A DNA stretch of 44,716 nucleotides from contig JAKISP010000035.1 of the NCBI GenBank assembly GCA_021648525.1, forward strand, positions 1-44,716, read 5' to 3'. The notes under the pieces were generated by a model. It had not been told where the DNA came from and searched no databases. It was given only the letters and a program-made list of their open reading frames with translations. The position numbers and the translations under genes are program-made. The stretch comes from Gammaproteobacteria bacterium (GTDB taxonomy: Bacteria; Pseudomonadota; Gammaproteobacteria; SZUA-140). Below are positions 15,916 to 34,309 of this stretch, one piece after another. Within the stretch, counting starts at the first letter, position 1. Each line of letters starts with the position of its first letter.

Positions 15916-15933
15916 TTTGTGGAGTATGGTGTT

Positions 15934-18900
15934 ATGAAGTTTGTCCCAATAAAAATTGAACCGCGCTCAGGTTGGCTCTGTTTACTGGCAGGGGTGATAG
16001 CGCTGGCAGCGTTGCCCGCCACCGCCCAGCACAGAGCAGTTCAGTTGACCCCGGGGTTAGCCACTTCTTTTACCGATTTTGGCAAGGCGGTGAGCACCGC
16101 CGGTGATGTCAATAACGATGGTTATGATGACATGATTGTCGGTCAGCCAAACTCAGGAAGGGTATATGTTTACTATGGCTCCGCCACGGGCCAATTTGCC
16201 TCGCAAAGCGGCTCTGTTGGGACCCCTGACTGGCAGGACACGGTCAATGCGGGCAACTTTGGTAGCGCCCTAGCCGCTGGTGATTTCAATTGCGATGGCA
16301 TTGATGACATTGCGGTGGGGGCTTACGATGGGAATGCTGGCCAGTTCAGAGAAGGGCAGGTCTATGTCTATTACGGCAGCGTTACCGGCCTTGCTGCCGC
16401 CCCTGACTGGCGTGCAGAGAGCGACGCTACAAATGCCTGGTTTGGCTGGTCGGTCAGTAACGCGGGTGATGTCAACAAAGATGGCTGCAGTGATCTGCTG
16501 ATCGGCGGACGCCGTTCCGGCAACGGTACGGCCACACTTATTTTTGGCGGCGACGGTGCAGGTGGCCCCGCACCACTGCCGGACGCCGATGCCGATGGCG
16601 TTGCCCGCCCCAGCGATTTTAGCTGGTCAGTGAGCGGCACGGGTGGTCTGGGTCAATCAGTCGCTGGCATTGGCGATGTCAACAACGATACGGTCGATGA
16701 CATTCTTATTGGTTCTCGCAATGGTAATATCTACATTTACTACGGTGTTTCCGCAGGCGTCCCAAACACAATCGCCGACTGGTCGGATAGCGGTTTCGGC
16801 ACCTTTGGTCGCTCGGTCGCCAAAGCGGGCAAAATCAACGGCGACACCGTTGCTGATTTTATCGTCGGTGCGCCTACGAGCAATGGCGGGGTGGTTCATC
16901 TCTACTATGGCGCAACGGGGGGGGCCAGAACAGACGGCAATTCCGACTGGAACTACACCGTGCCCAGCGAAGGGCATTCACACGGCTCCGACACCGGTTT
17001 TGCTGCCACCATCAGCGCTGCTGGTAATGTTAATGGGGATGGCTACGATGATTTTATCGTCGGCTGGCCCGTCTATCATGGTGGTTTGACAGGCCATCTC
17101 GGGCGGGTCTATCTTTTCCATGGTGGTGCGAGTGGCCCGGCGGCTACCCCTGATGAGACCATCGACGGTGCTCAGGAAGGAGCGCAGTTTGGTATATCGG
17201 TCTCCGCCGGGAATTTCGATGGCGACACCCTGGGCGATTTTATTGTCGGTGCGTCTAGCTACTCGGTCAATCTTGGTGCCACCATAACAGGGACCGGAAC
17301 CACGTTTGCCTACCTCAGTACGCCTGCGCCTGCACACATCACCATTGATCCACCACAAAGCTACACCAACTTCCACCTCACCTCGGAGGATGGGATTACC
17401 AGGACTTCCTCTTTCAGTCTCGTGCTGGATCGTCTGCCAGGCGCCGATGTCACCATCAACATCAGCAGTAACAACCCGGCTGAAGGTGTGGTATTGCCAG
17501 CTACGTTAACCTTTACCGTTGCTGATTGGAATGTGCCTCAGGTGGTCAATATCACCGGTGTCGATGATATGCTGGCCGATGGCACAGTGCCATACACACT
17601 CAGCTTTGCGGTCAACAGTAGTGATGCGGATTATAATGGGTTGATAGTTGATGAGGTGACCGCCCGCAACGAGGACGACGATGTCGTCGCCATCATTGTC
17701 GATCCGACAATGGAACTGGTGACCACAGAAGATCTTGGCACTGCCGCCTTCACAGTCGTACTGGACGCGCAGCCCACGGCCAATGTCACCATTGACCTCA
17801 CCAGTACTAATTTGCTGGAGGGCACTATCTTCCCCGCCTCTGTCACTTTCGATACCGTTAATTTCAGAGATCCTCAAGGGGTCACCATCACGGGGGTCGA
17901 TGATGCGATCCTGGATGGCAATATTGCTTACACCATTATTACCGCCCCGGCGGTCAGTAGTGACCCGAGCTACAACAACTTTAATCCTGCTGATGTTGAA
18001 GTGACGAATCATGATAATGACCTGAATACGAGCACCATCATCCTTGAAGGTAATCAGATCGGCTCACTGTTTGGTCGGACAGTTAGCGCTGCCGGGGATA
18101 TCAACGGAGACGGTTTTGCCGACTTTATAGTGGGAGCCCCCAAACATGATAACGGTCAGAGCAACGAAGGGCGCGTTTATGTCTACTTCGGTGCACCGGA
18201 AGGCTTCTCTTCCACTCCCTGGAGCGCGGAGGTCGACCAGGCGCGTGCCGAGTTCGGTGGATCGGTTGCGAGTGCGGGGGATGTTAATGGCGATGGTTTT
18301 GCCGATATCATTGTCGGCGCGCGCAAATATGATGGTGGTGAAGACGACGAAGGACGGGTGTTTGTCTACTACGGTTCAGCAGAGGGGTTGCCCGCCACTC
18401 CCGACTGGATGGCGGAAATTGACCAGGCTGGCGCGAATTTTGGCGCGGCGGTCAGCAGTGCCGGTGATGTCAATGGTGACGGTTTTGATGACATTCTGGT
18501 GGGTGCAGACAACTATTATGCCGCCGATTTTGTTAGCCCAGGTGCCGATTTCCCGCTGTTCGTTAAAGAAGGCGCCGCATTTCTCTTCTATGGTTCGGCC
18601 AGCGGCCTACCTGATGCGGTGCTGGATGGGATTGCCCGTCTCAGTGACGGTGACGTTGCGTGGCAGGGGGAGACTGGTGGCGTGGGTGCCGTAGATACCG
18701 CTAACTATGGCCGCGCGGTGGGCAGTGCCGGTGATGTGAACTGTGACGGCTTTGCCGACATCATTGTCGGTGCTCCCAAATACAATTTGGTCTCTTTTTC
18801 CGGTTTATGGGGTCGGGTTTGGGTCTACCATGGTGGGCCGTCAGGGTTGCGCAGTGATGGCAACGCCGACTGGACGATGCTCGGTCCGCAGGAGAGTACT

Positions 18901-21900
18901 AGTTTCGGCAGTGCAGTAGACGGTGCGGGTAACGTCAATGGCGACACCCAAGATGGTAATAGCTGTGACGATGTCATTATTGGTGCTGATGGTTTCGAGA
19001 GTACCAACACTGGCCCAACAGGGCAGGCAACAGAAAATAACGAAGGGCGGGTTTATCTCTATTATGGCTCACCGACCGGCTTGACGACGACCCCCTGGAC
19101 TTATGAAAACAACCAGGCGAACGGCAAATTAGGGATTGCGTCCGCTACCGTTGGTGACCTCAATAACGATGGTTTTGCCGACATCATTGCCGGTGCGAAC
19201 CGTTACGACGGCGGTGAGACCGATGAAGGACGAATCTACATCTATTTTGGTTCTGCCTCTGGTCCCGGTAATCCGGTGACTCGGGAGATCAATCAGGCGT
19301 CCGCTCTGTTTGGCACCGCGGTGGCCGGCACGGGTGATGTGGATGGCGATGGTAACGATGATTTCATTGTGGGTGCAACCCTTTATGATGGCGACCTTCT
19401 CAACGAGGGTGCCGCCTTCCTCTACCTCAGTGACCAGCCCGCGATCAAAGTTTATCCCGCTGCAGGACTGATCACCACTGAAACAGGTGGCAGCGATAGT
19501 TTCAGCGTGGTGCTCACCGATGCCCCGACTACCAGCGTTACCATTGGCCTCTCCAGCGATCTGACAGAGGGAACGCTTAGCAGCAGTTCCTTGCTGTTTA
19601 CACCGGCAGACTGGTTTACGCCACAAACCGTCACGGTCACTGGCGTCGACGATGGCAGCATCGACGGGGGTTTTCCTTATACAGTCGTTACCGCTGCGGC
19701 GGTGAGCATGGACAGCCGTTACAGCGGCATGAATGGCGAAGACGTGGCAGTACTGAATCTGGATGATGAGCGATCGACGGTGAGTATCATTGCGAGCGAT
19801 GGCGCGGCTAGCGAGAGCGGCCCCGACAGCGGAACCTTTACCGTGTCGCGGACGGGAGGAACCCCGTCACCGCTGCTGCTCTTCTATACCGTCGGCGGAA
19901 CCGCCACCAACGGTCTCGACTATCAGAGTCTGAACGGTAGTGTCACTATCGCCGCAGGCAGCAGCAGTGCTGTGATTACGTTGACGCCGCTGCTGGACGG
20001 ATTTTTTGAAGCAAGTGAAACGGTCATCGTGACCCTGAGTGTTGCGGCTAGTTACACCGTGGGCGTGCCTGCCAGTGCCAGTGTGACGATCAGTGATGGT
20101 ACTGCCAATGGTATCACGATCAGCCCCACCAGCGGTCTGGTCACCACCGAACAGGGCGGCAACGATACCTTTACTATCGTACTGAACAGCCTGCCAACGG
20201 CGGATGTCACGATTAATTTCACCAGCGATACCCCAGGGGAAGGCAGCCCCCTCGTGAGCGGTGTCACTTTTACCACGGCTAACTGGGATACACCACAAAT
20301 CGTGACAGTTGTCGGTCAGGACGACGCGGTGGTGGATGGCGATGCGGCTTACACCATTGTTACCAGCGTTACCAGTAGTGATAGCAACTATGCAGCACTC
20401 AATCCCGCCGATGTCGCGGTGATCAATCGGGATAATGATGCTTTGCCGGTGGTGACGATAGTGACCCGAAGTGATAGTGTTTCAGAAGGCGGCTTAGCCA
20501 CTTTTAGAGTTGCGCGCGCGGGTAGTACCGCCTCGAATCTGGTGGTGAACTACAACACCAGCGGTACCGCCACCAGCGGCATCGACTACACCACACCCAG
20601 CGGCACGGTGACCATTCTTGGCGGGCAGAGTTTCCGTGATGTGAACCTGACGACGACTAGGGATCCCGATCCAGAGGGCCCGGAGACGATAACGCTCTCA
20701 CTAATCGATAGCGCCATTTACATCGTCGGTTCACCGCGTGCCGATAGCGCCACTATCCGAAATACCTCAATCATCCCGGTTAGCTTTGGTTCCGACCAGA
20801 TAGTGGCAGAGGGCACCACGGTCCGTGTGCCGGTGGTCAAACGTGAAGCAGAGAGGGCCGTCACGATAACCTATACCGTGGCAGGGTCGGCAGAGAACCC
20901 GGCTGACCATGATGCGATGGATGGTAGTATTCTGGTTGCTGGGACAGATACGACGGGTTACATCACCTTTAATACGGCGATTGATGAGCTGTCGGAGGAG
21001 GATGAAACGGTTGTTTTCACTATTCAAAGCTTATCGCCGTCGGGCGGGTTTGGCAATAAAACCATCCACACGGTCACCATTACTGATGCGAATCTGCGTC
21101 CCGCCACCACCTTCCGGGCGGTTCAAGGTGGGCTCCAGACCCATCTGGTTGTTGCCAGCAGCGGCTTTGTTACGATGACGGCCAGCGTGGCCGACCCCAA
21201 CCCGGATGACAGCCATAGCTACGACTGGAGTCTGACCAATAACAATCTGATTGATGATGATCTGGATGGTGATCCCGCGACCTTTGTTTTTGACCCCAGC
21301 GGGTTGATGCCTGGTTTTTATAAAGCGCGCATAACGGTCACCGATGATGGTAGCCCGGTGCTGGCGGTGACCAATGAACTGCTGTTGGAGGTGGTGGCGA
21401 CGGCACCCACACTCGGCGCGTTTACTGACACTGATGGGGATGGCGTCAGGGATGCCACAGAGTCTTATGATGACAGCGATGGTGATGGCATCCCCGATTA
21501 CCTCGACCCCAACGCCATTGCACCGATACCCGACAGAAACCTGCCGCTCGATGCGCTACAGCAACTGCCGGTGCAGTACAAAAGTTACGTGATGCGAACA
21601 GACCCGGGGCTGGCGTTGCGCCTGGGGGACATCGCCTTTCTTGCTGGCAACGGCTCAGCACGGGTGAGCGTCGCCGACATTGCCAACTTCGGTGATGGCG
21701 AAGGGGGGCCGGGAGCCGCTAGCGCACAGGATATCATCCCGAATAGTGGCGGTTATTTTGATTTTGAGATCACCAGCCTGCCGATTGCTGGTCGTTCGGC
21801 TAGTGTGGTCATTCCACAGTTTGAGCCGCTGCCAAGTGGTGCACAGTATCGTAAATATCATCCCGTCAACGGTTGGAATAATTTTGTCGAAGATGCCAAT

Positions 21901-22278
21901 AATTCGCTCAGCTCTGCACCGGGCATACCGGGCCTCTGCCCGATGCCGAGGGATGCAGCCTATACGCCAGGTCTTACCGTGGGTGATTTCTGTGTACAGC
22001 TGATCATCGAGGATGGTGGCCCGAATGATACCGATGGCATCGCTAACCATGTCATTGAAGACCCTGGTCAAATTGGAGTGGTCGAATCACCACCAGGCGG
22101 TGGAGGTGAGCCGCCGCCAGTGGTTACCGAGCAGCCGGGGGGCAATAGCCAATCGAGTCAATCGGGCGGCGGTGGCATTATCAACCTGACCGTTATGCTG
22201 GGACTCTTCCTGTTTATCTGGTTCAGCCTGAGAACATCTGGACGGCGTACCGGCTGGCATCGCCCCGGCGCTGGGTAG
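15934..22278 (+). CDS. 2114-aa surface protein: two seven-repeat FG-GAP propellers, Calx-beta domains, GlyGly-CTERM
   Basis: The start is ATG 15934, 9 nt after GGAG; GTG 15919 is also in frame. A signal peptide (to about residue 32) leads into seven FG-GAP repeats (about 47-463) of the type AGDVNxDGxDDxIVG...VYYGSxxG. Two about 115-residue beta domains (470-700) and seven more FG-GAP repeats (708-1170) follow. Next come two more of the about 110-residue repeats interleaved with three Calx-beta domains (about 1171-1723), then a cadherin/PKD-like domain and a thrombospondin type-3 segment DTDGDGVRDATESYDDSDGD (about 1831-1850). A choice-of-anchor U-like region with CPMPRDAAYTPGLTVGDFC comes next, and finally a GGGG stretch, hydrophobic helix and Arg-rich tail typical of GlyGly-CTERM. 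FG-GAP and TSP3 motifs bind calcium. The likely role is surface adhesion or matrix structure. Confidence 0.9.
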   Translation: MKFVPIKIEPRSGWLCLLAGVIALAALPATAQHRAVQLTPGLATSFTDFGKAVSTAGDVNNDGYDDMIVGQPNSGRVYVYYGSATGQFASQSGSVGTPDWQDTVNAGNFGSALAAGDFNCDGIDDIAVGAYDGNAGQFREGQVYVYYGSVTGLAAAPDWRAESDATNAWFGWSVSNAGDVNKDGCSDLLIGGRRSGNGTATLIFGGDGAGGPAPLPDADADGVARPSDFSWSVSGTGGLGQSVAGIGDVNNDTVDDILIGSRNGNIYIYYGVSAGVPNTIADWSDSGFGTFGRSVAKAGKINGDTVADFIVGAPTSNGGVVHLYYGATGGARTDGNSDWNYTVPSEGHSHGSDTGFAATISAAGNVNGDGYDDFIVGWPVYHGGLTGHLGRVYLFHGGASGPAATPDETIDGAQEGAQFGISVSAGNFDGDTLGDFIVGASSYSVNLGATITGTGTTFAYLSTPAPAHITIDPPQSYTNFHLTSEDGITRTSSFSLVLDRLPGADVTINISSNNPAEGVVLPATLTFTVADWNVPQVVNITGVDDMLADGTVPYTLSFAVNSSDADYNGLIVDEVTARNEDDDVVAIIVDPTMELVTTEDLGTAAFTVVLDAQPTANVTIDLTSTNLLEGTIFPASVTFDTVNFRDPQGVTITGVDDAILDGNIAYTIITAPAVSSDPSYNNFNPADVEVTNHDNDLNTSTIILEGNQIGSLFGRTVSAAGDINGDGFADFIVGAPKHDNGQSNEGRVYVYFGAPEGFSSTPWSAEVDQARAEFGGSVASAGDVNGDGFADIIVGARKYDGGEDDEGRVFVYYGSAEGLPATPDWMAEIDQAGANFGAAVSSAGDVNGDGFDDILVGADNYYAADFVSPGADFPLFVKEGAAFLFYGSASGLPDAVLDGIARLSDGDVAWQGETGGVGAVDTANYGRAVGSAGDVNCDGFADIIVGAPKYNLVSFSGLWGRVWVYHGGPSGLRSDGNADWTMLGPQESTSFGSAVDGAGNVNGDTQDGNSCDDVIIGADGFESTNTGPTGQATENNEGRVYLYYGSPTGLTTTPWTYENNQANGKLGIASATVGDLNNDGFADIIAGANRYDGGETDEGRIYIYFGSASGPGNPVTREINQASALFGTAVAGTGDVDGDGNDDFIVGATLYDGDLLNEGAAFLYLSDQPAIKVYPAAGLITTETGGSDSFSVVLTDAPTTSVTIGLSSDLTEGTLSSSSLLFTPADWFTPQTVTVTGVDDGSIDGGFPYTVVTAAAVSMDSRYSGMNGEDVAVLNLDDERSTVSIIASDGAASESGPDSGTFTVSRTGGTPSPLLLFYTVGGTATNGLDYQSLNGSVTIAAGSSSAVITLTPLLDGFFEASETVIVTLSVAASYTVGVPASASVTISDGTANGITISPTSGLVTTEQGGNDTFTIVLNSLPTADVTINFTSDTPGEGSPLVSGVTFTTANWDTPQIVTVVGQDDAVVDGDAAYTIVTSVTSSDSNYAALNPADVAVINRDNDALPVVTIVTRSDSVSEGGLATFRVARAGSTASNLVVNYNTSGTATSGIDYTTPSGTVTILGGQSFRDVNLTTTRDPDPEGPETITLSLIDSAIYIVGSPRADSATIRNTSIIPVSFGSDQIVAEGTTVRVPVVKREAERAVTITYTVAGSAENPADHDAMDGSILVAGTDTTGYITFNTAIDELSEEDETVVFTIQSLSPSGGFGNKTIHTVTITDANLRPATTFRAVQGGLQTHLVVASSGFVTMTASVADPNPDDSHSYDWSLTNNNLIDDDLDGDPATFVFDPSGLMPGFYKARITVTDDGSPVLAVTNELLLEVVATAPTLGAFTDTDGDGVRDATESYDDSDGDGIPDYLDPNAIAPIPDRNLPLDALQQLPVQYKSYVMRTDPGLALRLGDIAFLAGNGSARVSVADIANFGDGEGGPGAASAQDIIPNSGGYFDFEITSLPIAGRSASVVIPQFEPLPSGAQYRKYHPVNGWNNFVEDANNSLSSAPGIPGLCPMPRDAAYTPGLTVGDFCVQLIIEDGGPNDTDGIANHVIEDPGQIGVVESPPGGGGEPPPVVTEQPGGNSQSSQSGGGGIINLTVMLGLFLFIWFSLRTSGRRTGWHRPGAG

Positions 22279-24509: not shown

Positions 24510-24954
24510 CACTTCCGTTAATAGTTTCTCGATATGGCTACGGATGGCATTGCGTGCGGCACTAAATACAGTGAGGATCTCCCTCGCTGCCGGTCGGCTG
24601 AGCGGAGTCGGAGAGTGGCCAGTGAATGCGTGCTAGATCGCTTCGCGATGTTTGTCGAATTACGTGAAAATTGCTAATCGAGCCTGCATCCAACGTTATT
24701 ATTGTGGCTCACTTAATGTTATCTGCACCTCATTCGAACACCTTCACCTGTTACATTAGCCGGAGATGTGAGCATTATCGAGTTAAGTTCTACCGGACAG
24801 TGAAAATCTTTGTTATTTCATGTCAACCGATTCGTCAATGCTGCGTTTGTATGTATGACAGTTGTGGAATTTTCCGCCATGCAGTACTGGACAAAGTGTC
24901 CCATAACTGGCCAGAATCAAAACCACAGGATGCAAACCATGCAGGAGAGAGGCG
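24510..24954. other. 445-bp gap upstream of the ECF sigma gene
   Basis: I see no convincing gene, terminator or promoter here. Several short frames are open but have poor composition. A minor hairpin (ATCG-CTTCG-CGAT at about 24637-24649) lacks a U-tract. An autoregulated ECF promoter would be expected in the right-hand part, but I cannot point to its -35/-10 pair. Confidence 0.4.
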
Positions 24955-25527
24955 CTGGACAACTCGGTAGCACTGGATCAATTCCTCGCAAGCGTGGAGC
25001 GGCGGGCATATCGCATGGCGATAATCGCCACCAGCAATCACGAAGATGCGCTGGACATCGTACAGGATTCCATGTTGCGTCTGGTCAGACGCTATGCCGA
25101 TCGCGATGCCGATCAGTGGGGGCCGTTATTTCACCGCATTGTGCAGAGCGTGATTCGTGACTGGTATCGGCGTACCGCTGTGCGCAATCGATTCCGGTTT
25201 TTTTTAGGCCAAAAGAGCCTGCGGGATCAGAGCGATGAAACCGCGGCGGAAGAAGATCCCATCGAAGCCCATTTTGCGACAGCCGAACCGGGGCCGGATG
25301 TACAGTTGCAGCAACAGCAGGCCATTAGGCAACTGGATGCCGCGCTGCACCGTTTGCCGCTACGCCAGCAACAGGTGTTTTTGTTGCGACAATGGGAAGG
25401 CCTTAGTGTGCGTGATACGGCGCAGGCGATGGGTTGCGGTGAAGGCAGCGTGAAAACCCATTTTTCGCGTGCACTGAAAACGTTACGTGAACAATTACAG
25501 GACCATTGGCAGGAGAATGAAGCGTGA
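24955..25527 (+). CDS. ECF-family RNA polymerase sigma factor, probable CTG start
   Basis: Region 2 (FLASVERRAYRMA, DALDIVQDSMLRLV, DWYRR) and region 4 (LPLRQQQVFLLRQWEGLSVRDTA, then a helix-turn-helix with EGSVKTHFSRALKTLR) are both complete. The only conventional start in the open frame, GTG 24994, has no ribosome binding site and cuts off the first region 2 helix (LDQFLASV). CTG at 24955 sits 7 nt after AGGAG (24943-24947) and restores it, giving 190 residues. It directs RNA polymerase to an envelope-type regulon, probably including this operon. The next gene overlaps by 4 bp (GTGA) and probably encodes its anti-sigma factor. Sigma identity is sure; the start is inferred. Confidence 0.9.
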   Translation: MDNSVALDQFLASVERRAYRMAIIATSNHEDALDIVQDSMLRLVRRYADRDADQWGPLFHRIVQSVIRDWYRRTAVRNRFRFFLGQKSLRDQSDETAAEEDPIEAHFATAEPGPDVQLQQQQAIRQLDAALHRLPLRQQQVFLLRQWEGLSVRDTAQAMGCGEGSVKTHFSRALKTLREQLQDHWQENEA

Positions 25528-25892
25528 ATGAATCCGAAGAGACAGGCCGCTTGCTGAAAATGTCGAAAGTGACACTGGATCAGGCGGCAGATGAGCTGGA
25601 TGATGCCACGCTGCGAGATCTGCGCTGCGTGCGTCGTGAAGCCCTTTTAGTGAGTCAAGCGGTTGCCAGTGGAAAACCTCCAGCCTGGTTGTTACCGATA
25701 GGCGGATTGGCTACAACGGCTACCGTGGCAGTGTTGACAGTATCGCTGTGGTGGACGCCACTGGAGAATGACCCGATTGTGCAATTTCCGCCGTTAGAAG
25801 ATCTGGCACTGCTGGGGGATGCTGAATCGCTGGAGTTTTATGAGAATTTAGATTTTTATTTATGGTTAGATGATGAAAAAGAAGCTGGGTAA
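25524..25892 (+). CDS. probable membrane anti-sigma factor
   Basis: This 122-residue protein has an N-terminal cytoplasmic part of about 60 residues, one membrane helix (about 55-77, WLLPIGGLATTATVAVLTVSL) and an acidic C-terminal part outside the cytoplasm. That topology, and the 4-bp GTGA overlap with the sigma gene, suggest an anti-sigma factor that holds the ECF sigma at the membrane. No zinc-binding ZAS motif (HxxxCxxC) is visible, so it is not a classical zinc anti-sigma. Function is by context only. Confidence 0.65.
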   Translation: MNESEETGRLLKMSKVTLDQAADELDDATLRDLRCVRREALLVSQAVASGKPPAWLLPIGGLATTATVAVLTVSLWWTPLENDPIVQFPPLEDLALLGDAESLEFYENLDFYLWLDDEKEAG

Positions 25893-26106
25893 ACACCGCG
25901 TGAATCGCATGCTTGTTTTATACATGCTGTTAACACCATGGTGTGTGGTTGCCGAGGAAACCCCCAGCCTTGAATTACTGGAATTTCTCGGTGACTGGGA
26001 AATCAGCGAAAGCGAATGGCAAGACCCGCTGGATTTTATACAGGACCTGGATGCACTGGATGCGGAAGCCCAGGCTGAAGTTGAGGAGGCACAAGATGCA
26101 CAGTAA
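25870..26106 (+). CDS. small exported acidic protein
   Basis: This 78-residue protein has a signal-like N-terminus (basic start, then MLVLYMLLTPWCVVA). The mature part is short and acidic, rich in Leu, Asp and Glu (LELLEFLGDWEISESEW...). It overlaps the preceding gene by 23 bp and the next by 11 bp, so it belongs to the ECF operon. I do not recognise the family. Its acidity contrasts with the strongly basic protein encoded next, so the two may interact; this is speculation. Confidence 0.6.
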   Translation: MMKKKLGKHRVNRMLVLYMLLTPWCVVAEETPSLELLEFLGDWEISESEWQDPLDFIQDLDALDAEAQAEVEEAQDAQ

Positions 26107-26683
26107 AAAATTAAAATACAGTGGCTGGTTGATTGCGTCTTTACTGTTAGTGTGCAGCCCAGTGCTGTCACAGGTCAGTGATACTGCGCAATCAATAAAC
26201 CAGGGTCAGGGCGCTGTTGCTAAAGGGAATGGCAAGAGCATTGCCTGGCGTTCACTGAGTGTTGATGAACAAACGTTGCTGACACCGTTTGCAAAGAACT
26301 GGGAAGGTTTTCCGCCGGCTCGCCAGCAACGCTTGCGTAAGGGTATTAAACGTTGGGCACAGCTGACACCTGAGCAACGGACACGGGCTCAAAAACGCTT
26401 TGTCCGCTGGCAGCAATTGCCACCGGAAAAACGCCAGCAGGTGCGAAATCGTTTTGAACATTTCATGTCACTGCCGTCAGCCGAGCGTAAACGGTTGCGT
26501 AAACAGTCCCGTGATTTTCGTAATTTACCCCCGGCACGGCGTGCGGTGCTGCGTGAACGTTGGCAGAAAATGCCGCCAGCGCAACGGCGTGCTGTGATGG
26601 AACGGCGACAGATGCAGCGGCAAATCAACCGGCAGCAGCGGCAGGAAATGCGTCGGCAAATGCACCATCAGCGGCGGCATTGA
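26096..26683 (+). CDS. exported DUF3106 protein
   Basis: The start is ATG 26096, after GAGGAGG at 6-nt spacing, giving 195 residues; an in-frame start further upstream would lie inside the previous gene. A signal peptide (to about residue 27, LLLVCSPVLSQ) leads to a very basic region. There LPPEKRQQVRNRF-like units of about 20 residues repeat (LTPEQRTRAQKRF, LPSAERKRLRKQ, LPPARRAVLRERW, MPPAQRRAVMERR), the hallmark of DUF3106. The tail is Gln/Arg-rich. DUF3106 proteins often sit in ECF sigma operons with Spy/CpxP-like features, which suggests a periplasmic stress role, but none is established. Confidence 0.8.
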   Translation: MHSKKLKYSGWLIASLLLVCSPVLSQVSDTAQSINQGQGAVAKGNGKSIAWRSLSVDEQTLLTPFAKNWEGFPPARQQRLRKGIKRWAQLTPEQRTRAQKRFVRWQQLPPEKRQQVRNRFEHFMSLPSAERKRLRKQSRDFRNLPPARRAVLRERWQKMPPAQRRAVMERRQMQRQINRQQRQEMRRQMHHQRRH

Positions 26684-26732
26684 GAGCACCGTTCGCAGGC
26701 CCGGGATTAGTCGTTAGTGTGCGTATAATTCA

Positions 26733-27662
26733 ATGTTTTTTTACCTGATGACTGGCGGGTACTTAAAGAGAAAATTAAGAGCAAATTATATTTTGCAGCA
26801 GTGGCATTTTGTTTTACCGCACCTTTTGGGGGTGGTTCTGGTAGGAATATCCGTTGCGGTACAAGCCGATGGTCTGCCATCGACACTCTCTTTTGAGGCG
26901 GGAGGTGACGCGTTGGGGGGGCGCGACTATTATTTTGATCTGGATTATGCATTTGTCAATGACTCACGCCTGCTGGCATCAATAGCACGGAATCATTCCA
27001 CCCGTCAGAATAACCCCATTACCATTCGCAGTGTTTTGCTGGGATTTCGTACGGATCCGCTGGAACGTCTCAGTGCTGGAATTGAGCTGGAAACCTGGGG
27101 TAAAAAAGATGCGCTGGAAACAGATACGTTGCGAGCCGTGATGGATGTCAATCTGCAACACTGGCAGTTTTCTCTGCGGCCGCAATGGCGCACGCTCACC
27201 TTTAGCACGGATTGCGTGAGAACCAGGCGACGGCGTTGTCAATCTGATGCAGAAGTGAACAGTACCGGCACAGCATTTGATGTGAGTTATTACACGGATG
27301 GGCCATGGTCGTTCTCGCTGGGTTTTGCACGCCATCAATATGATAAAAACATCACGACACTGGCATCGGAACCGCGCTGGCAGTTTTTATTTTCGGCAGC
27401 CACGCTGGACCTTTCTACCGGGCTGGAAGATCGTCGTCGCAGTGCGGCTGCTTCCTGGTTCGGCGGTAATGCTCTGTGGCGTTTTTCATGGCTTAAAAGC
27501 GTTTCCAGAGTCACGAGTGAGGCCGGGTTTGTACAGACATTGCGATTTTCCACCAGTCTTGGTGAACAGTGGCATTTGCGGTTGCGAGTGGGCAGTCAAA
27601 CGCTGGAAAAGGGTAGAGACTCTGTGTGGTTTGCAGGGACAGGGCTAGCCTATAGCTGGTAA
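26733..27662 (+). CDS. probable outer-membrane beta-barrel protein
   Basis: The sequence (up to 309 residues) has a signal region (LLGVVLVGISVAVQA, then DGLPS). Alternating hydrophobic strands and aromatic girdle residues run throughout, and the terminal residue is aromatic (GLAYSW), as in outer-membrane barrels. No named family recognised. The start is uncertain. ATG 26733 lacks a ribosome binding site and directly follows a TATAAT (26724-26729); if that hexamer is a -10, translation must begin later, for example at ATG 26748. It lies 49 bp after the DUF3106 gene and fits the envelope theme of the ECF operon. Confidence 0.7.
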   Translation: MFFYLMTGGYLKRKLRANYILQQWHFVLPHLLGVVLVGISVAVQADGLPSTLSFEAGGDALGGRDYYFDLDYAFVNDSRLLASIARNHSTRQNNPITIRSVLLGFRTDPLERLSAGIELETWGKKDALETDTLRAVMDVNLQHWQFSLRPQWRTLTFSTDCVRTRRRRCQSDAEVNSTGTAFDVSYYTDGPWSFSLGFARHQYDKNITTLASEPRWQFLFSAATLDLSTGLEDRRRSAAASWFGGNALWRFSWLKSVSRVTSEAGFVQTLRFSTSLGEQWHLRLRVGSQTLEKGRDSVWFAGTGLAYSW

Positions 27663-27797
27663 AACAGAGCTGTTTCCTGCTTCTGAATAAGGTCTGAAAA
27701 TATTTGTTGTGTCAACCAACTGATCGCTCCTGCGTTGTACGGGATGAACATTTGATTTTATCCGAATGTAAACGTACACATTGATCAGGAGATCATC

Positions 27798-29726
27798 ATG
27801 GAAATATTTTATCTGCAACGTCGGGCTACGATAGCCGCGATGCCTGGCTTGATGCGGAGCCATTTTTTATTCAGTCTGTTTTTATTGTTTGCTAGCATAT
27901 TGCTGGTGGGTTGTGGCGCATCTGGTGGCAGCGCCGCAGAGGCAGAAGGTGATGGCGAAATTATTATTGGGCTTACTGATGCAGAAGGTGATTTTGCCAG
28001 TTATACCGTGGACGTATTGTCGCTGACACTCACCAAAGCCAATGGCGCCGTAGTTGAAACACTGCCTTTATCGACCCGCGTAGACTTTGCGCAATACACC
28101 GAGATGACAGAATTCCTCACGGCGGCCACGGTGCCCAATGGTGTCTACGTCAAGGCCAGCATGGTACTGGATTACAGTGATGCCGATATCTGGGTGGAAA
28201 ATGCAGCGGGTGATGCGGTGAAGGTTAACAACATCGTCGATACAAATGGTATGGCGCTGAGACAGCTGGATGTGGCTGTAAATCTTGAAGAGCATACCAG
28301 GCTAGTGATTGCACCGGGTATCCCGAGCCATCTTACGCTGGACTTTGATCTTAAGGCCTCCAACAAGGTGCGCTTTGATGAGGCGGGTGTGCCGACACAA
28401 GTGGTCAAACCTTTTTTGTTGGCCGATGTGACGCTTGAAAACCCCAAAATACATCGCTTGCGCGGGTTGTTGGCCAGTGTCGATGTGGCGGAGAGTCGTT
28501 TTGAAATTATTTTGCGCCCGTTTCACCATCGCCTGGCGACAGATCGTCACCGTCGTCATTTTGGTCAACTGGAAGTAATCACCAACAGTGCCACACTGTT
28601 TGAAATCAACAATGATGATTATCAGGGACGGGCAGGTCTGGTCGCGCTGGAGGAGCAACCAGAATTTACCGCAACCATTGTTATCGGCAATTTAAAACTC
28701 AACCCGCGCCGTTTTGAGGCACGAGAAGTCTATGCCGGTTCTAGCGTGCCGGGTGGTGAGCTGGATGTAGTGACAGGTAATGTGATTGCGCGCAATGGTG
28801 ATTCACTCATCGTGAAAGGTGCCACTCTGATACGTGCCGGTGGTAGTGTGATTTTTAACGATGAAGTCATCGTGAATATGGGTGATTTAACTCAGGTGAA
28901 ACGTCAACTTTCCATGAGCACGGATTACGATATTGATGATGTTTCTGTGGGACAGCGAGTACGTGCGTTTGGTGTGTTGACCAATGACATAGCCAGTCAG
29001 CTGGAAATGGATGCCGGAGTGAATAACCGGGGCAGAGTGAAAATGCGTTTGACCACATTGCGCGGCACGGTGCTGGACGTGGTGAGTATTCCCGAACAGC
29101 CACTACCGTTTGTGCTCGATTTGCAGGCCATTGATGGTCGTTACACAGGTTTGTTTGATTTCAGTGGTACAGGTGATGAATCCGTGAATGATGCTGACCC
29201 TGCCTTTTATGAAATTGATGTAGCAACACTGGATGTGAGTGAACTGGCCAGCGGTACTCCGGTGAAAGTGCGCGGGTTTGTGCGACCTTTCGGAGAGGTG
29301 ACTGCCGCAGCGCCCAGTGATTTTGCAGCACACACGATTGTGGACGTAACGGCGCTGAAAGCGGTGATGACGATTGGCTGGACTCCTGCATCACTGACCG
29401 CTATTGCAAGTAGCTCTGCTGACAGTTTGACATTCAACCTGGCGGGTGTGGGCAGATTTCATCATATCTCCCGTGCCAGAGTCGCGATTGATCTCACTAC
29501 AGCGAATGCAGCACCACGCATCATACCGCGTGAAAATGGTACTGGAATGTATCGGCTGGTACAGTCGGGTACCGTTCAGGTGTATACCCGTTTCGAGAAT
29601 TTTACGGCTGATCTTGAAGCTCGCCTGCGGGATGGTGCGCTGGTGAAACATGTTGCGGCAAGTGGCCCGTATAATGATGCCCGTGTCACGATCACTGCGG
29701 GATTTGTAACGATGTTGCTCGAATAG
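27798..29726 (+). CDS. DUF4382 domain lipoprotein
   Basis: This 642-residue protein begins at ATG 27798 after AGGAG. A hydrophobic signal ends in the lipobox LLVGC (Cys39), followed by a Gly/Ser/Ala linker. DUF4382 spans about 52-215 (GEIIIGLTDAEGDFASYTVDVLSLTL...VDFAQYTE...VPNGVYVKASM). The remainder is beta-rich with repeated OB-like strands (LRGLLASVDVAES, VVTGNVIARNGDSLIVKG, LRGTVLDVVS), resembling DUF5666 domains. It is probably an outer-membrane lipoprotein facing the periplasm or the surface. No enzyme motif is visible. It closes the ECF-associated gene set before a strong terminator. Confidence 0.85.
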   Translation: MEIFYLQRRATIAAMPGLMRSHFLFSLFLLFASILLVGCGASGGSAAEAEGDGEIIIGLTDAEGDFASYTVDVLSLTLTKANGAVVETLPLSTRVDFAQYTEMTEFLTAATVPNGVYVKASMVLDYSDADIWVENAAGDAVKVNNIVDTNGMALRQLDVAVNLEEHTRLVIAPGIPSHLTLDFDLKASNKVRFDEAGVPTQVVKPFLLADVTLENPKIHRLRGLLASVDVAESRFEIILRPFHHRLATDRHRRHFGQLEVITNSATLFEINNDDYQGRAGLVALEEQPEFTATIVIGNLKLNPRRFEAREVYAGSSVPGGELDVVTGNVIARNGDSLIVKGATLIRAGGSVIFNDEVIVNMGDLTQVKRQLSMSTDYDIDDVSVGQRVRAFGVLTNDIASQLEMDAGVNNRGRVKMRLTTLRGTVLDVVSIPEQPLPFVLDLQAIDGRYTGLFDFSGTGDESVNDADPAFYEIDVATLDVSELASGTPVKVRGFVRPFGEVTAAAPSDFAAHTIVDVTALKAVMTIGWTPASLTAIASSSADSLTFNLAGVGRFHHISRARVAIDLTTANAAPRIIPRENGTGMYRLVQSGTVQVYTRFENFTADLEARLRDGALVKHVAASGPYNDARVTITAGFVTMLLE

Positions 29727-29769
29727 CCAGACAGACACGCTACGCTGGCGTTGCGGTTATGTTTTGAAG

Positions 29770-29803
29770 CAGGCTCCCTTGATAACAGGGGAGCCTGTTT
29801 TTT
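29770..29803 (+). terminator. intrinsic terminator after the DUF4382 gene
   Basis: A 9-bp GC-rich stem (CAGGCTCCC / GGGAGCCTG) closes a loop of about 10 nt and is followed by six T residues. It ends the rightward unit that starts with the ECF sigma gene. Confidence 0.85.
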
Positions 29804-31830: not shown

Positions 31831-31959
31831 ATGAAGTTCGCGCTGACAAACCGCGTGATAAAACAAGGTTTAAGTGGGTGGTGTGGGGATGAAAAAAGGG
31901 TTCAAAAAAGAGTTCGGGCTAGCGTTAGCGCTAGGTCTCTCGCCGTTAGCGCATGCTGA
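31831..31959 (+). CDS. possible 42-aa upstream ORF overlapping the next gene
   Basis: ATG 31831 follows GGAG at 7-nt spacing, a better ribosome binding site than that of the downstream gene. The frame runs 42 codons (MKFALTNRVIKQGLSGWCGDE...) and stops inside the signal-peptide region of the next gene, which is read in another frame. It may be a leader ORF that couples translation to the next gene, or chance. The product is basic and unrecognised. Confidence 0.3.
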   Translation: MKFALTNRVIKQGLSGWCGDEKRVQKRVRASVSARSLAVSAC

Positions 31960-34309
31960 TATTACATTCGATGTGTCAACATTTGTCGATGGGGTTGATA
32001 GTAATCCTGGCGATAATATCTGCCAGACAGCCAGCAATGCCTGTAGTCTGCGTGCCGCAGTGCAGGAGGCTAATCTTCATGATGGCGTCACTACCATCAA
32101 CCTGCTGGAGGGGCTTTATACCTTAGGTGAAGGTGTTGCTGATACTGAAGGCAATAATCAGAACCCGATTGATGATAGCGCTGGGGATCTTGATATTTTC
32201 AATGGAAAAACAGTCATTATAAACGGCGTAGGTTCAAGGGTTACGGCGATTGATGGCATGAGGGAAGACCGTGTCTTTGATGTGCGTAATGGTGCCCATT
32301 TGATATTGAACGATCTCACTGTGCGTAATGGCTTCGTCTTTATTCCTGTCATTAATCCTAATGTCTTTACGATTAGAGAGGATTATAGTTCTGATGAAGC
32401 GGGTGGTGGGATTAAGGTTGATGGCACTCTCGTACGTTCAGCGCTAACCCTGAACCGAGTGGCTGTTGTCGGCAACGCGGCCTCTGTGGGCGGTGGTGGC
32501 ATTGATATTTTATCGTCGAATGTAGAGATCAACGCCAGTACAATTAATGGTAACGATGTGGTCGGTTTTGGTGGTGGGCTTAGTATCATGAATAGCCGCG
32601 TTGATATTAATGATAGTGCGATTACCAATAACATCAATGATGCCCAGACGATTATCTTTGGCGGCGGCATCTTTAATTCATCGTCGGACGGGGACGATTA
32701 CTTAAATATTACCCGTTCAACCATTTCGAGCAATAGCGCCTACCGTGATGGTGGCGGGATTTACCATCAGTTTGGTGAATTGAAGATTGTTAATTCGACC
32801 ATTAGTGGTAATACCGCCGGGAAATGGGGTGGTGGTCTGTTTAATGCGGACACGCTCTTCTGGACTGATGTGGATCTGATTCAAACCACGATTACCGATA
32901 ATGCAGCGATTGGTAATATTAACGACGATACACAGACTCAGCAGTTTCCTGATGAGCCTAAAGGGGGCGGGATTTATAATCGTGCTCAGACAGGGACGAT
33001 GGGTGCCGCACACATGAATCTGTTTAATAGTATTGTTTCAGGAAATGGCCTGGGTAATGATTGCTATAACGATCTGATGACTTCCAATACAAACAAAGCG
33101 TTTATCAACAAAGTGGGCACATTGATTTCCAATGAGTCCTGTTTGAACCTGAATGAGCCTGTACCTGCTTATGGTTTGCCGCATTTTCAGTCGTTGACTT
33201 TTAATGGTGGTGGCGCAGAGACACACGCGCTGCTGAACGCAAGTGACGCGATTCGTTTAGGGGTCATCGAATACTGCCCCGATCATGATCAGCGAAGATT
33301 TGAGCGCCGAGGTTTAAGTTGTGATAGTGGTGCCTATGAGTTTGCAGCGAATGAATTTAGTATGCCATTGGTCGAGGTTGCCATCGCGTTTGGTGGAGAG
33401 CCTTTAAATTATCGGCCTGAGGTATCTAATCTGCTGATTGATGTTGCTCCTGGGATGACAGTATCCGGTCAGCTAGTCGTTTTCGACAGGGATGAGGAGG
33501 ATCTAGCAGGTGGCTCCTATAAGCAAATTACCCCTCCCTTTACGACGAAGGGCTTTGTGACTAGCCTGGGCGAAGAGACCGGCGCATTTACCTACTCGGC
33601 AGTGGCTGGTAGCAGTGGGATTGACCAGTTTGGTTTTGAGTACTGTGATGCAGGAGGCCTTTGTGACCAGGGCGTTGTCTCCGTGCTGATTAATAATGTC
33701 GCGGTGGAGTCTGGCGTGACGGCGACGATTTCTCCTGGTGATGGAACGGTGAGCCTGGTAACAGTGATTGCGGATGCCGACCTGGTTGGCACGCTCTCTG
33801 ATGCTGATTTTGCGTTTCCGTTGGGCGCAATGTTTTTTGATGTGACCGGTATTCCTACTGATCAGAGTTCTGTGACGGTTACTCTGGTACTTCCCGCTGG
33901 TCTGGATGTAGCACAGGATGCGGTGGTGAGAAAGATGAATCGCTTTGATACCTGGATGACGCTTAGTAATATTGTGAATCCTGATTTATCATCTGCTGTT
34001 TTTACCCCAGCGGCAGGCGCTACCCCCGCGATGGTGACGCTAACACTGGTGGATAACGATATCTTTGATCTTGATAGAAGGATGGGGTCGATTAGTGACC
34101 CAGTTGCAGTGGGTGTCTCAGCAGGGCCCACAATCACAACCCCCAATCCAACCCCAACCCCAACCCCCACAAATCCAGCGCCAGCTGTCGGGACGGATGT
34201 TGCTGTTGAGGGTGGCGGTGGTGGTGGCGGTGCAGCTGGCTTAGGTTATCTCTCGGCGCTGTTATTATTAGGGTTGTGGCGACGACGTTTTAACGCGATT
34301 CAGCACTAA
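31889..34309 (+). CDS. secreted CSLREA / parallel beta-helix protein with GlyGly-CTERM anchor
   Basis: The start at ATG 31889 gives 806 residues with a signal peptide (MKKGFKKEFGLALALGLSPLAHA). A CSLREA-type N-terminal motif follows (DNICQTASNACSLRAAVQEAN). Then comes a right-handed beta-helix (about 60-420) built from repeats such as STINGN, SAITNN, STISSN and STISGNTAGKWGGGLFN, and a choice-of-anchor Q-like end (GVIEYCPDHDQRR...CDSGAYEF). A beta-rich region and a Pro/Thr linker (PTPTPTPTNPAP) lead to a classic GlyGly-CTERM: seven Gly, hydrophobic helix, RRR. Such tails are cleaved by rhombosortase and the protein is exported by type II secretion. Function is probably surface binding or polysaccharide interaction. 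It is followed by a strong terminator. Confidence 0.88.
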   Translation: MKKGFKKEFGLALALGLSPLAHADITFDVSTFVDGVDSNPGDNICQTASNACSLRAAVQEANLHDGVTTINLLEGLYTLGEGVADTEGNNQNPIDDSAGDLDIFNGKTVIINGVGSRVTAIDGMREDRVFDVRNGAHLILNDLTVRNGFVFIPVINPNVFTIREDYSSDEAGGGIKVDGTLVRSALTLNRVAVVGNAASVGGGGIDILSSNVEINASTINGNDVVGFGGGLSIMNSRVDINDSAITNNINDAQTIIFGGGIFNSSSDGDDYLNITRSTISSNSAYRDGGGIYHQFGELKIVNSTISGNTAGKWGGGLFNADTLFWTDVDLIQTTITDNAAIGNINDDTQTQQFPDEPKGGGIYNRAQTGTMGAAHMNLFNSIVSGNGLGNDCYNDLMTSNTNKAFINKVGTLISNESCLNLNEPVPAYGLPHFQSLTFNGGGAETHALLNASDAIRLGVIEYCPDHDQRRFERRGLSCDSGAYEFAANEFSMPLVEVAIAFGGEPLNYRPEVSNLLIDVAPGMTVSGQLVVFDRDEEDLAGGSYKQITPPFTTKGFVTSLGEETGAFTYSAVAGSSGIDQFGFEYCDAGGLCDQGVVSVLINNVAVESGVTATISPGDGTVSLVTVIADADLVGTLSDADFAFPLGAMFFDVTGIPTDQSSVTVTLVLPAGLDVAQDAVVRKMNRFDTWMTLSNIVNPDLSSAVFTPAAGATPAMVTLTLVDNDIFDLDRRMGSISDPVAVGVSAGPTITTPNPTPTPTPTNPAPAVGTDVAVEGGGGGGGAAGLGYLSALLLLGLWRRRFNAIQH

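Follow-up and report, generated by a model that had tools for sequence, protein, structure and literature searches.

A conserved sigma factor operon with a shared promoter and a probable CTG start, proposed to act as an envelope-stress switch

In the present study, we analyzed by computational means alone a block of six genes at 24955-29726 in a 44,716-nucleotide (nt) contig of a gammaproteobacterium (assembly GCA_021648525.1, contig JAKISP010000035.1; the whole contig is referred to as the window). The block encodes an extracytoplasmic function (ECF) sigma factor, a protein with one transmembrane (TM) segment, a small acidic export, a basic exported protein of the DUF3106 family, an outer-membrane barrel and a DUF4382 lipoprotein. 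The core operon at its head is conserved and probably encodes a bacterial stress switch, one that is apparently undescribed. We propose, with a probability of roughly 0.6, that the locus is a self-amplifying envelope-stress switch with a membrane anti-sigma factor and a periplasmic partner, working like CnrYXH or RseAB, in which the sensing step is inferred. The proposal was drawn from the constant order of the core genes, a promoter motif shared by the proposed targets and the conserved charges of the encoded proteins; in addition, the sigma gene appears to be translated from a CTG codon. The features of the locus are as follows.

24821..24847, plus strand: promoter P1, TGTCAACC-N14-GCGTT, an exact match upstream of the sigma operon
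24943..24947, plus strand: Shine-Dalgarno sequence AGGAG, read from the sequence, 7 nt before the CTG
24955..25527, plus strand: ECF sigma factor gene, NF006550 match, probable CTG start at 24955-24957
25524..25892, plus strand: one-TM DUF3619-like anti-sigma candidate, second gene of the operon, with an acidic periplasmic tail ending in FYxWL
25870..26106, plus strand: small acidic export of 78 residues, motif (P)S/DxELLEFLGxWE..DGxWxDP
26096..26683, plus strand: DUF3106 basic exported helical-repeat protein, Pfam E 2e-29, all-helical model
26733..27662, plus strand: predicted 14-strand outer-membrane beta-barrel with a C-terminal Trp, from a structure model and an OmpG match
27710..27736, plus strand: promoter P2, same motif as P1, an exact match upstream of the lipoprotein gene
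27798..29726, plus strand: DUF4382 lipoprotein, Pfam E 8.2e-7, Cys39 invariant in 15 aligned members
29766..29801, plus strand: intrinsic-terminator-like stem of 16 pairs with a T-rich tail

A sequence-only reading had described the block as a single ECF sigma operon with four overlapping genes, ending at a terminator. All six genes were confirmed on the plus strand in the described order at 24955-29726, the overlaps were located at 25524-25527 (sigma/anti-sigma), 25870-25892 (anti-sigma/acidic) and 26096-26106 (acidic/DUF3106), and a terminator-like stem of 16 pairs lay at the end. However, a further copy of the sigma promoter stands before the lipoprotein gene, at 27710-27736; thus the block is two transcription units, each with the same ECF-type promoter, and not one operon. 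The sigma protein matched NCBIfam NF006550 (PRK09047) at 223 bits against a cut-off of 173; its Pfam region 4_2 scored 62.6 bits, over the cut-off, and region 2 scored 23.6 against 24.0, just under it. The DUF3106 (PF11304) match reached 102.6 bits (cut-off 24.3) and the DUF4382 (PF14321) match 29.8 bits (cut-off 25). The one-TM protein of the window scored 10.3 bits with DUF3619 (PF12279; E 0.97), under the cut-off of 22.2, and 13 of 16 aligned relatives matched this family at E <= 0.01, the best at 5.1e-7. The sequence-only reading had further seen a sigma-controlled envelope module without assigned function, and this agreed with the literature searched, where no mention of DUF3106, DUF3619 or PRK09047 was found and DUF4382 appeared in one paper. 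The sigma group may already bear an ECF number in the main ECF re-classification.

The conservation of the core was examined in 168 loci; here, as in the other counts of this study, kinship among the source organisms was ignored. Eighty-eight were anchored on DUF3106 matches (28 from a first search and 60 mostly from the top of the match list for 370 genomes of the class), and 80 named loci were anchored on the sigma factor; six sigma proteins occur in identical form in both sets. The sigma factor, the one-TM protein and DUF3106 were all present in 161 of the 168 loci (82/88 DUF3106-anchored and 79/80 sigma-anchored); neither gene order nor strand differed among the 161, and the one-TM protein was always the second gene of the operon. 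The acidic gene was found in 126 of these complete cores. Among the named carriers were Gammaproteobacteria and Nitrospira, including the complete chromosome FP929003, and a few carriers were labelled Delta- or Zetaproteobacteria or Myxococcota, the labels of metagenome-assembled genomes (MAGs) being taken as recorded. The distribution of DUF3106 was patchy close to home: it was present in 106 of the 370 genomes of the class, in none of nine genomes of the same genus and in two of ten others of the family. No stop-to-stop frame in the fetched loci matched two core families, and thus no natural fusion of core proteins was seen.

A second line of evidence came from the promoter. A scan of the window that tolerated as many as three mismatches returned 3 matches where 1.3 were expected, and the only exact ones were P1 and P2. 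These two were also the only sites of TGTCAACC-N11-14-TGCGTT in the whole 3.36-Mb genome, where the reversed control gave 0; with fixed spacing, the reversed control gave 1 site. P1 was conserved in a DNA alignment of four close relatives, and equivalent sites lay upstream of the sigma gene in many relatives. In the 168 loci (1.79 Mb), a looser pattern, GTCAACC-N14-16-CGTT, occurred at 155 sites, compared with 3 when reversed, and preceded all 16 linked lipoprotein genes. For the strict pattern, a set of 52 genomes, of which 50 carry DUF3106, yielded 58 sites and 2 control sites, and the 370 genomes yielded 111 and 19. Part of the whole-genome sites fell within genes, probably by chance. The strict pattern was present in 62/106 genomes with DUF3106 and in 14/264 without it (p 4.5e-28, kinship ignored).

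Among the 147 distinct sites in the loci, 83 lay directly before the sigma gene, 14 before the DUF4382 lipoprotein gene, 1 before DUF3106 and 11 before other genes, and the remaining 38 preceded an extra gene or leader and then the sigma gene. By a strict rule, 12 of the 38 belonged to charged RGDRI-type repeat exports, and more of them looked so by eye. The first genes after the promoter encoded exported proteins, namely RD-repeat proteins, EF-hand proteins, Slp-family lipoproteins (one with an Slp match at E 4.7e-46) and glycine-rich exports, together with a protein whose LTXXQ match was below threshold and a further DUF4382 protein. Collectively, the shared motif was enriched at the proposed targets, as expected of a regulon, and the sigma factor would recognize it. 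Three counts weigh against a regulon read in this way: 44 of the 106 DUF3106-positive genomes had no strict site, 7 of 29 lipoprotein genes lacked one (four of them with a one-letter variant), and the looser pattern gave 4 sites against 5 controls in the window's own genome. The last figure is not above chance and the looser pattern is therefore uninformative genome-wide. Its two extra sites there lay within or against other genes and looked like chance matches.

Several promoter-linked genes were observed beside these counts. Tandem RGDRIxxRLDR-repeat exports stood directly after the promoter in L034, L073, L083, L089, L153, L164, L239 and other loci, often as the first gene of the sigma operon, and one had a weak apolipoprotein match under the cut-off. 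A charged RD-repeat protein was not found in the window's own genome, in a search that had no positive control. Slp-family outer-membrane lipoprotein genes lay behind the same promoter at L116:935-1498 and, by eye, in L140 (Pleionea sediminis and a MAG). A literature search for the promoter letters together with 'sigma' listed unrelated matches.

The barrel and the lipoprotein behaved differently from the core. The barrel had no Pfam or NCBIfam match. Its model had 14 strands with a mean predicted local distance difference test (pLDDT) score of 87.4, chains of the porin OmpG were among its best PDB matches (template modelling score up to 0.71 by target length, about 11% identity), and a C-terminal Trp was present in 26 of 27 complete family members. 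By modelled fold and C-terminal aromatic residue, the protein is predicted to be a 14-strand outer-membrane barrel. Linkage of the barrel and lipoprotein to the sigma genes in relatives had been set beforehand as the refuting test of the sequence-only reading, and the answer was split: the survey of neighbourhoods found the core constant, and the barrel in 28 and the lipoprotein in 16 of the 168 loci. All 16 linked lipoprotein genes followed the barrel and carried the sigma promoter. Among the 370 genomes, a search with 15 lipoproteins found the lipoprotein in 30, of which 26 have DUF3106, and the promoter preceded 22 of the 29 genes with readable upstream DNA. Nine of these 22 were on the DUF3106 contig. 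The other 13 were on another contig and kept the promoter; therefore, regulation would outlive linkage. In G083 this contig starts inside a barrel, so that assembly may have split one locus in two, and others among the 13 were on short contigs. The barrel was present in 31 genomes, 29 of them with DUF3106, and away from the operon only 2 of 12 barrels had the promoter. Taken together, these distributions suggested that both genes are accessories of the core, the lipoprotein being a probable regulon member wherever it is located and the barrel a weaker one. A second DUF4382 lipoprotein gene was noted in the window's own genome (L001, contig C22, 39485-39868), with no exact promoter site.

The same counts bear on the idea that the barrel and lipoprotein are an output machine, a channel with a surface or periplasmic lipoprotein moving a substrate, to which the upstream genes are only the switch. 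The OmpG-like topology and the invariable position of the lipoprotein behind the barrel are what such a machine would predict. However, no lipoprotein was nearby in 12 of the 28 barrel loci, at least 133 loci had the switch without either gene, and 10 of the 12 barrels away from the operon lacked the promoter. We therefore consider a dedicated output machine unlikely.

Sigma translation appears to start at CTG 24955, where the interval of the sequence-only reading begins. In the window, the first ATG, GTG or TTG of the sigma frame is GTG 24994, with none upstream in frame, and the conserved sequence LDxFLASVE begins upstream of this GTG; CTG 24955 sits 7 nt after AGGAG. From 164 sigma frames, 147 distinct ones with the N-terminal anchor were retained, the remainder being duplicates or lacking the anchor. 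The codon six before the anchor was CTG in 86, TTG in 6, ATG in 2, GTG in 1, CTT in 2, CTC in 1 and others in the rest, and CTG stood at the start position in 59 of the 80 named loci. The cultured carrier Pleionea mediterranea DSM 25350 (locus L122) also has CTG. The CTG-bearing sigma factors had a median pairwise identity of 0.53 (minimum 0.40). On the tree, the position must have switched between CTG and other codons 20 times or more; thus CTG was lost or gained repeatedly.

An alternative is that CTG 24955 is an ordinary Leu codon and that initiation occurs upstream or at GTG 24994. It draws on the 65 of 90 CTG genes in which an open frame reaches some ATG, GTG or TTG no more than 40 codons further upstream and on relatives without any start-like codon at that position (52 of 145 sigma rows had neither CTG nor a standard start there, and CUG is not universal), and both counts speak against the CTG start. 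On the other side, 28 genes had no ATG, GTG or TTG before the anchor, and 20 of them carried CTG exactly at the start position. A Shine-Dalgarno score of at least 4 was found for 67 of 86 start-position CTGs, compared with 68 of 440 among the remaining candidate starts, and a purine-rich AGGAG-like peak lay at -12 to -9 in the 86 CTG relatives. Entropy by codon position hardly varied in the upstream DNA (1.88/1.93/1.94) and followed the reading frame after the first codon (1.20/0.88/1.65), so that codon periodicity was present in codons 2-10 and absent before the CTG. CTG made up 86 of 95 Leu-type codons at the start and 48% of 2681 internal Leu codons (binomial p 7e-19, kinship ignored), and in nine relatives it was replaced by ATG, GTG or TTG. 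These results argue for the CTG start and make the ordinary-codon alternative quite improbable. One clade (L086/L168, L178, L185) had ATA instead of CTG after the Shine-Dalgarno sequence.

Conserved non-standard starts are known in infC and other genes. The present case resembles infC in that a weak start codon is kept across species in a regulatory gene, and differs in that the codon would be CUG and the gene is that of an ECF sigma factor. Passages of previous studies state that only 2 of 61,358 reconstructed AUG starts switched to CUG and that CUG-started genes are few (PMC5622118), and that CUG initiation is unstable and inefficient (PMC11497404). The literature search returned no paper combining 'CUG start codon', 'sigma factor' and 'bacteria'.

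The charges of the core proteins were highly consistent. Net charge was negative for the C-terminal 45 residues of the one-TM protein in 161 of 164 cases and for the acidic protein without its signal in 126 of 128, and it was positive for DUF3106 in 162 of 167. The (E/D)-rich...FYxWL motif of the tail and the ELLEFLGxWE motif of the acidic protein were strongly conserved. Gene order, the single TM segment and the conserved N-terminal and tail motifs make the one-TM protein an anti-sigma candidate. The DUF3106 model was an all-helical repeat (mean pLDDT 85.8); Foldseek found no PDB match at E <= 0.001 (best E 0.94), and the DUF3106 protein had no match to the RseB/MucB family at E <= 1. The sequence-only reading had paired the acidic and basic exports, and the signs of their charges were consistent with this. 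Their charges did not covary (Spearman 0.12, p 0.17), and 36 operons had no detectable acidic gene; in 27 of these the gap was 200 nt or less and left no room for it. The anti-sigma tail and DUF3106 would be the more general acid/base pair, and the conserved charges fit a model in which a basic periplasmic protein binds an acidic tail and the acidic protein competes with that tail. This fit is not proof: the missing acidic genes, the lack of covariation for both pairs (tail and DUF3106, -0.07, p 0.38) and the failed case for homology all count against it. As to homology between tail and acidic protein, which as a duplication would have proved mimicry, the profile score of 10.5 was reached by 5 of 60 column-permuted controls and the candidate was rejected. 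In L082, L085, L109 and L125, the anti-sigma match covered only about 150 nt with a gap before the acidic gene, so the frame may be interrupted or of another architecture.

An alternative is that DUF3106 and the acidic protein are effectors rather than sensors, a Spy/LTXXQ-like periplasmic chaperone pair induced by the sigma factor, in which the acidic member would hold its basic partner in a soluble or inactive state until it is required. Charged helical exports are found among the other promoter targets, one of them with an LTXXQ match below its cut-off (0.0024), and one target protein has a weak DUF3106 stretch fused to an EF-hand. DUF3106 was also more basic where the acidic gene was present (mean charge +15.5, n=128, versus +9.8, n=39), but this difference is confounded by relatedness. 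DUF3106 stays in the sigma/anti-sigma operon (161/168), in contrast to the variable presence of the barrel and lipoprotein, as would be expected of a regulator. We regard the effector role as possible, though on the doubtful side.

Three known systems are closest to the proposed switch. In CnrYXH of Cupriavidus metallidurans, CnrX is the periplasmic partner. CnrY is placed among the class II anti-sigma factors in passages of PMC7406223. The present locus shares with CnrYXH an ECF sigma factor, a one-TM anti-sigma candidate with a short domain and a putative periplasmic partner. Unlike CnrYXH, it has DUF3106 as the partner, an extra acidic export and the promoter, probable CTG start and targets described here, and no metal-resistance genes were noticed in the fetched operons. 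According to passages of PMC8103513, RseB is an operon-encoded periplasmic protein that binds RseA, and the RpoE-RseA-RseB system of E. coli is likewise an autoregulated envelope sigma factor with a membrane anti-sigma and an operon-encoded periplasmic protein; DUF3106 differs from RseB in being a small all-helical repeat protein without a MucB/RseB family match. SbrI-SbrR of Pseudomonas aeruginosa, an ECF sigma factor and anti-sigma pair with a role in cell-envelope stress proposed in passages of PMC10418997, is a possible functional parallel, likened by its described role alone. None of the 80 named loci carried the name Pseudomonas.

In the proposed switch, the sigma factor would recognize the TGTCAACC-N14-GCGTT promoter and would therefore control its own expression and that of the lipoprotein, with the barrel reached by read-through. 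The N-terminal domain of the one-TM anti-sigma candidate would hold the sigma factor in the cytoplasm, while its acidic tail with the FYxWL motif would lie in the periplasm, where basic DUF3106 may bind and protect it, as in RseB-RseA or CnrX-CnrY. Envelope damage would titrate DUF3106 away, leading to loss of the anti-sigma and release of the sigma factor, and the small acidic protein of the same operon could tune the response by competing for DUF3106. The CUG start may keep sigma synthesis below anti-sigma synthesis. As a speculative extension, the conserved CUG might be a built-in translational throttle in a whole family of ECF sigma factors, possibly sensitive to initiation fidelity (e.g., the IF3 level) and coupled to a charge-based periplasmic switch of three parts, in which DUF3106 would shuttle from the acidic tail to a dedicated decoy, the acidic protein of the same operon, and back.

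Outside the module, two very large exported proteins flank it at 15919-22278 and 31874-34309 of the window. From the look of their sequences, one presumably has many repeats resembling FG-GAP and Calx-beta, and the other presumably has a CSLREA-like start and a Gly-rich, TM and Arg-rich C-terminus.

The proposed switch would provide a common and testable regulator for a large set of unannotated proteins, including DUF3106, DUF3619-like, DUF4382 and charged repeat exports, through one promoter that can be read directly from DNA and for which any genome can be scanned. Deep conservation of a CUG start would be out of the ordinary, and gene callers restricted to ATG, GTG and TTG would misplace the starts of these sigma factors, as the open reading frame list did here.

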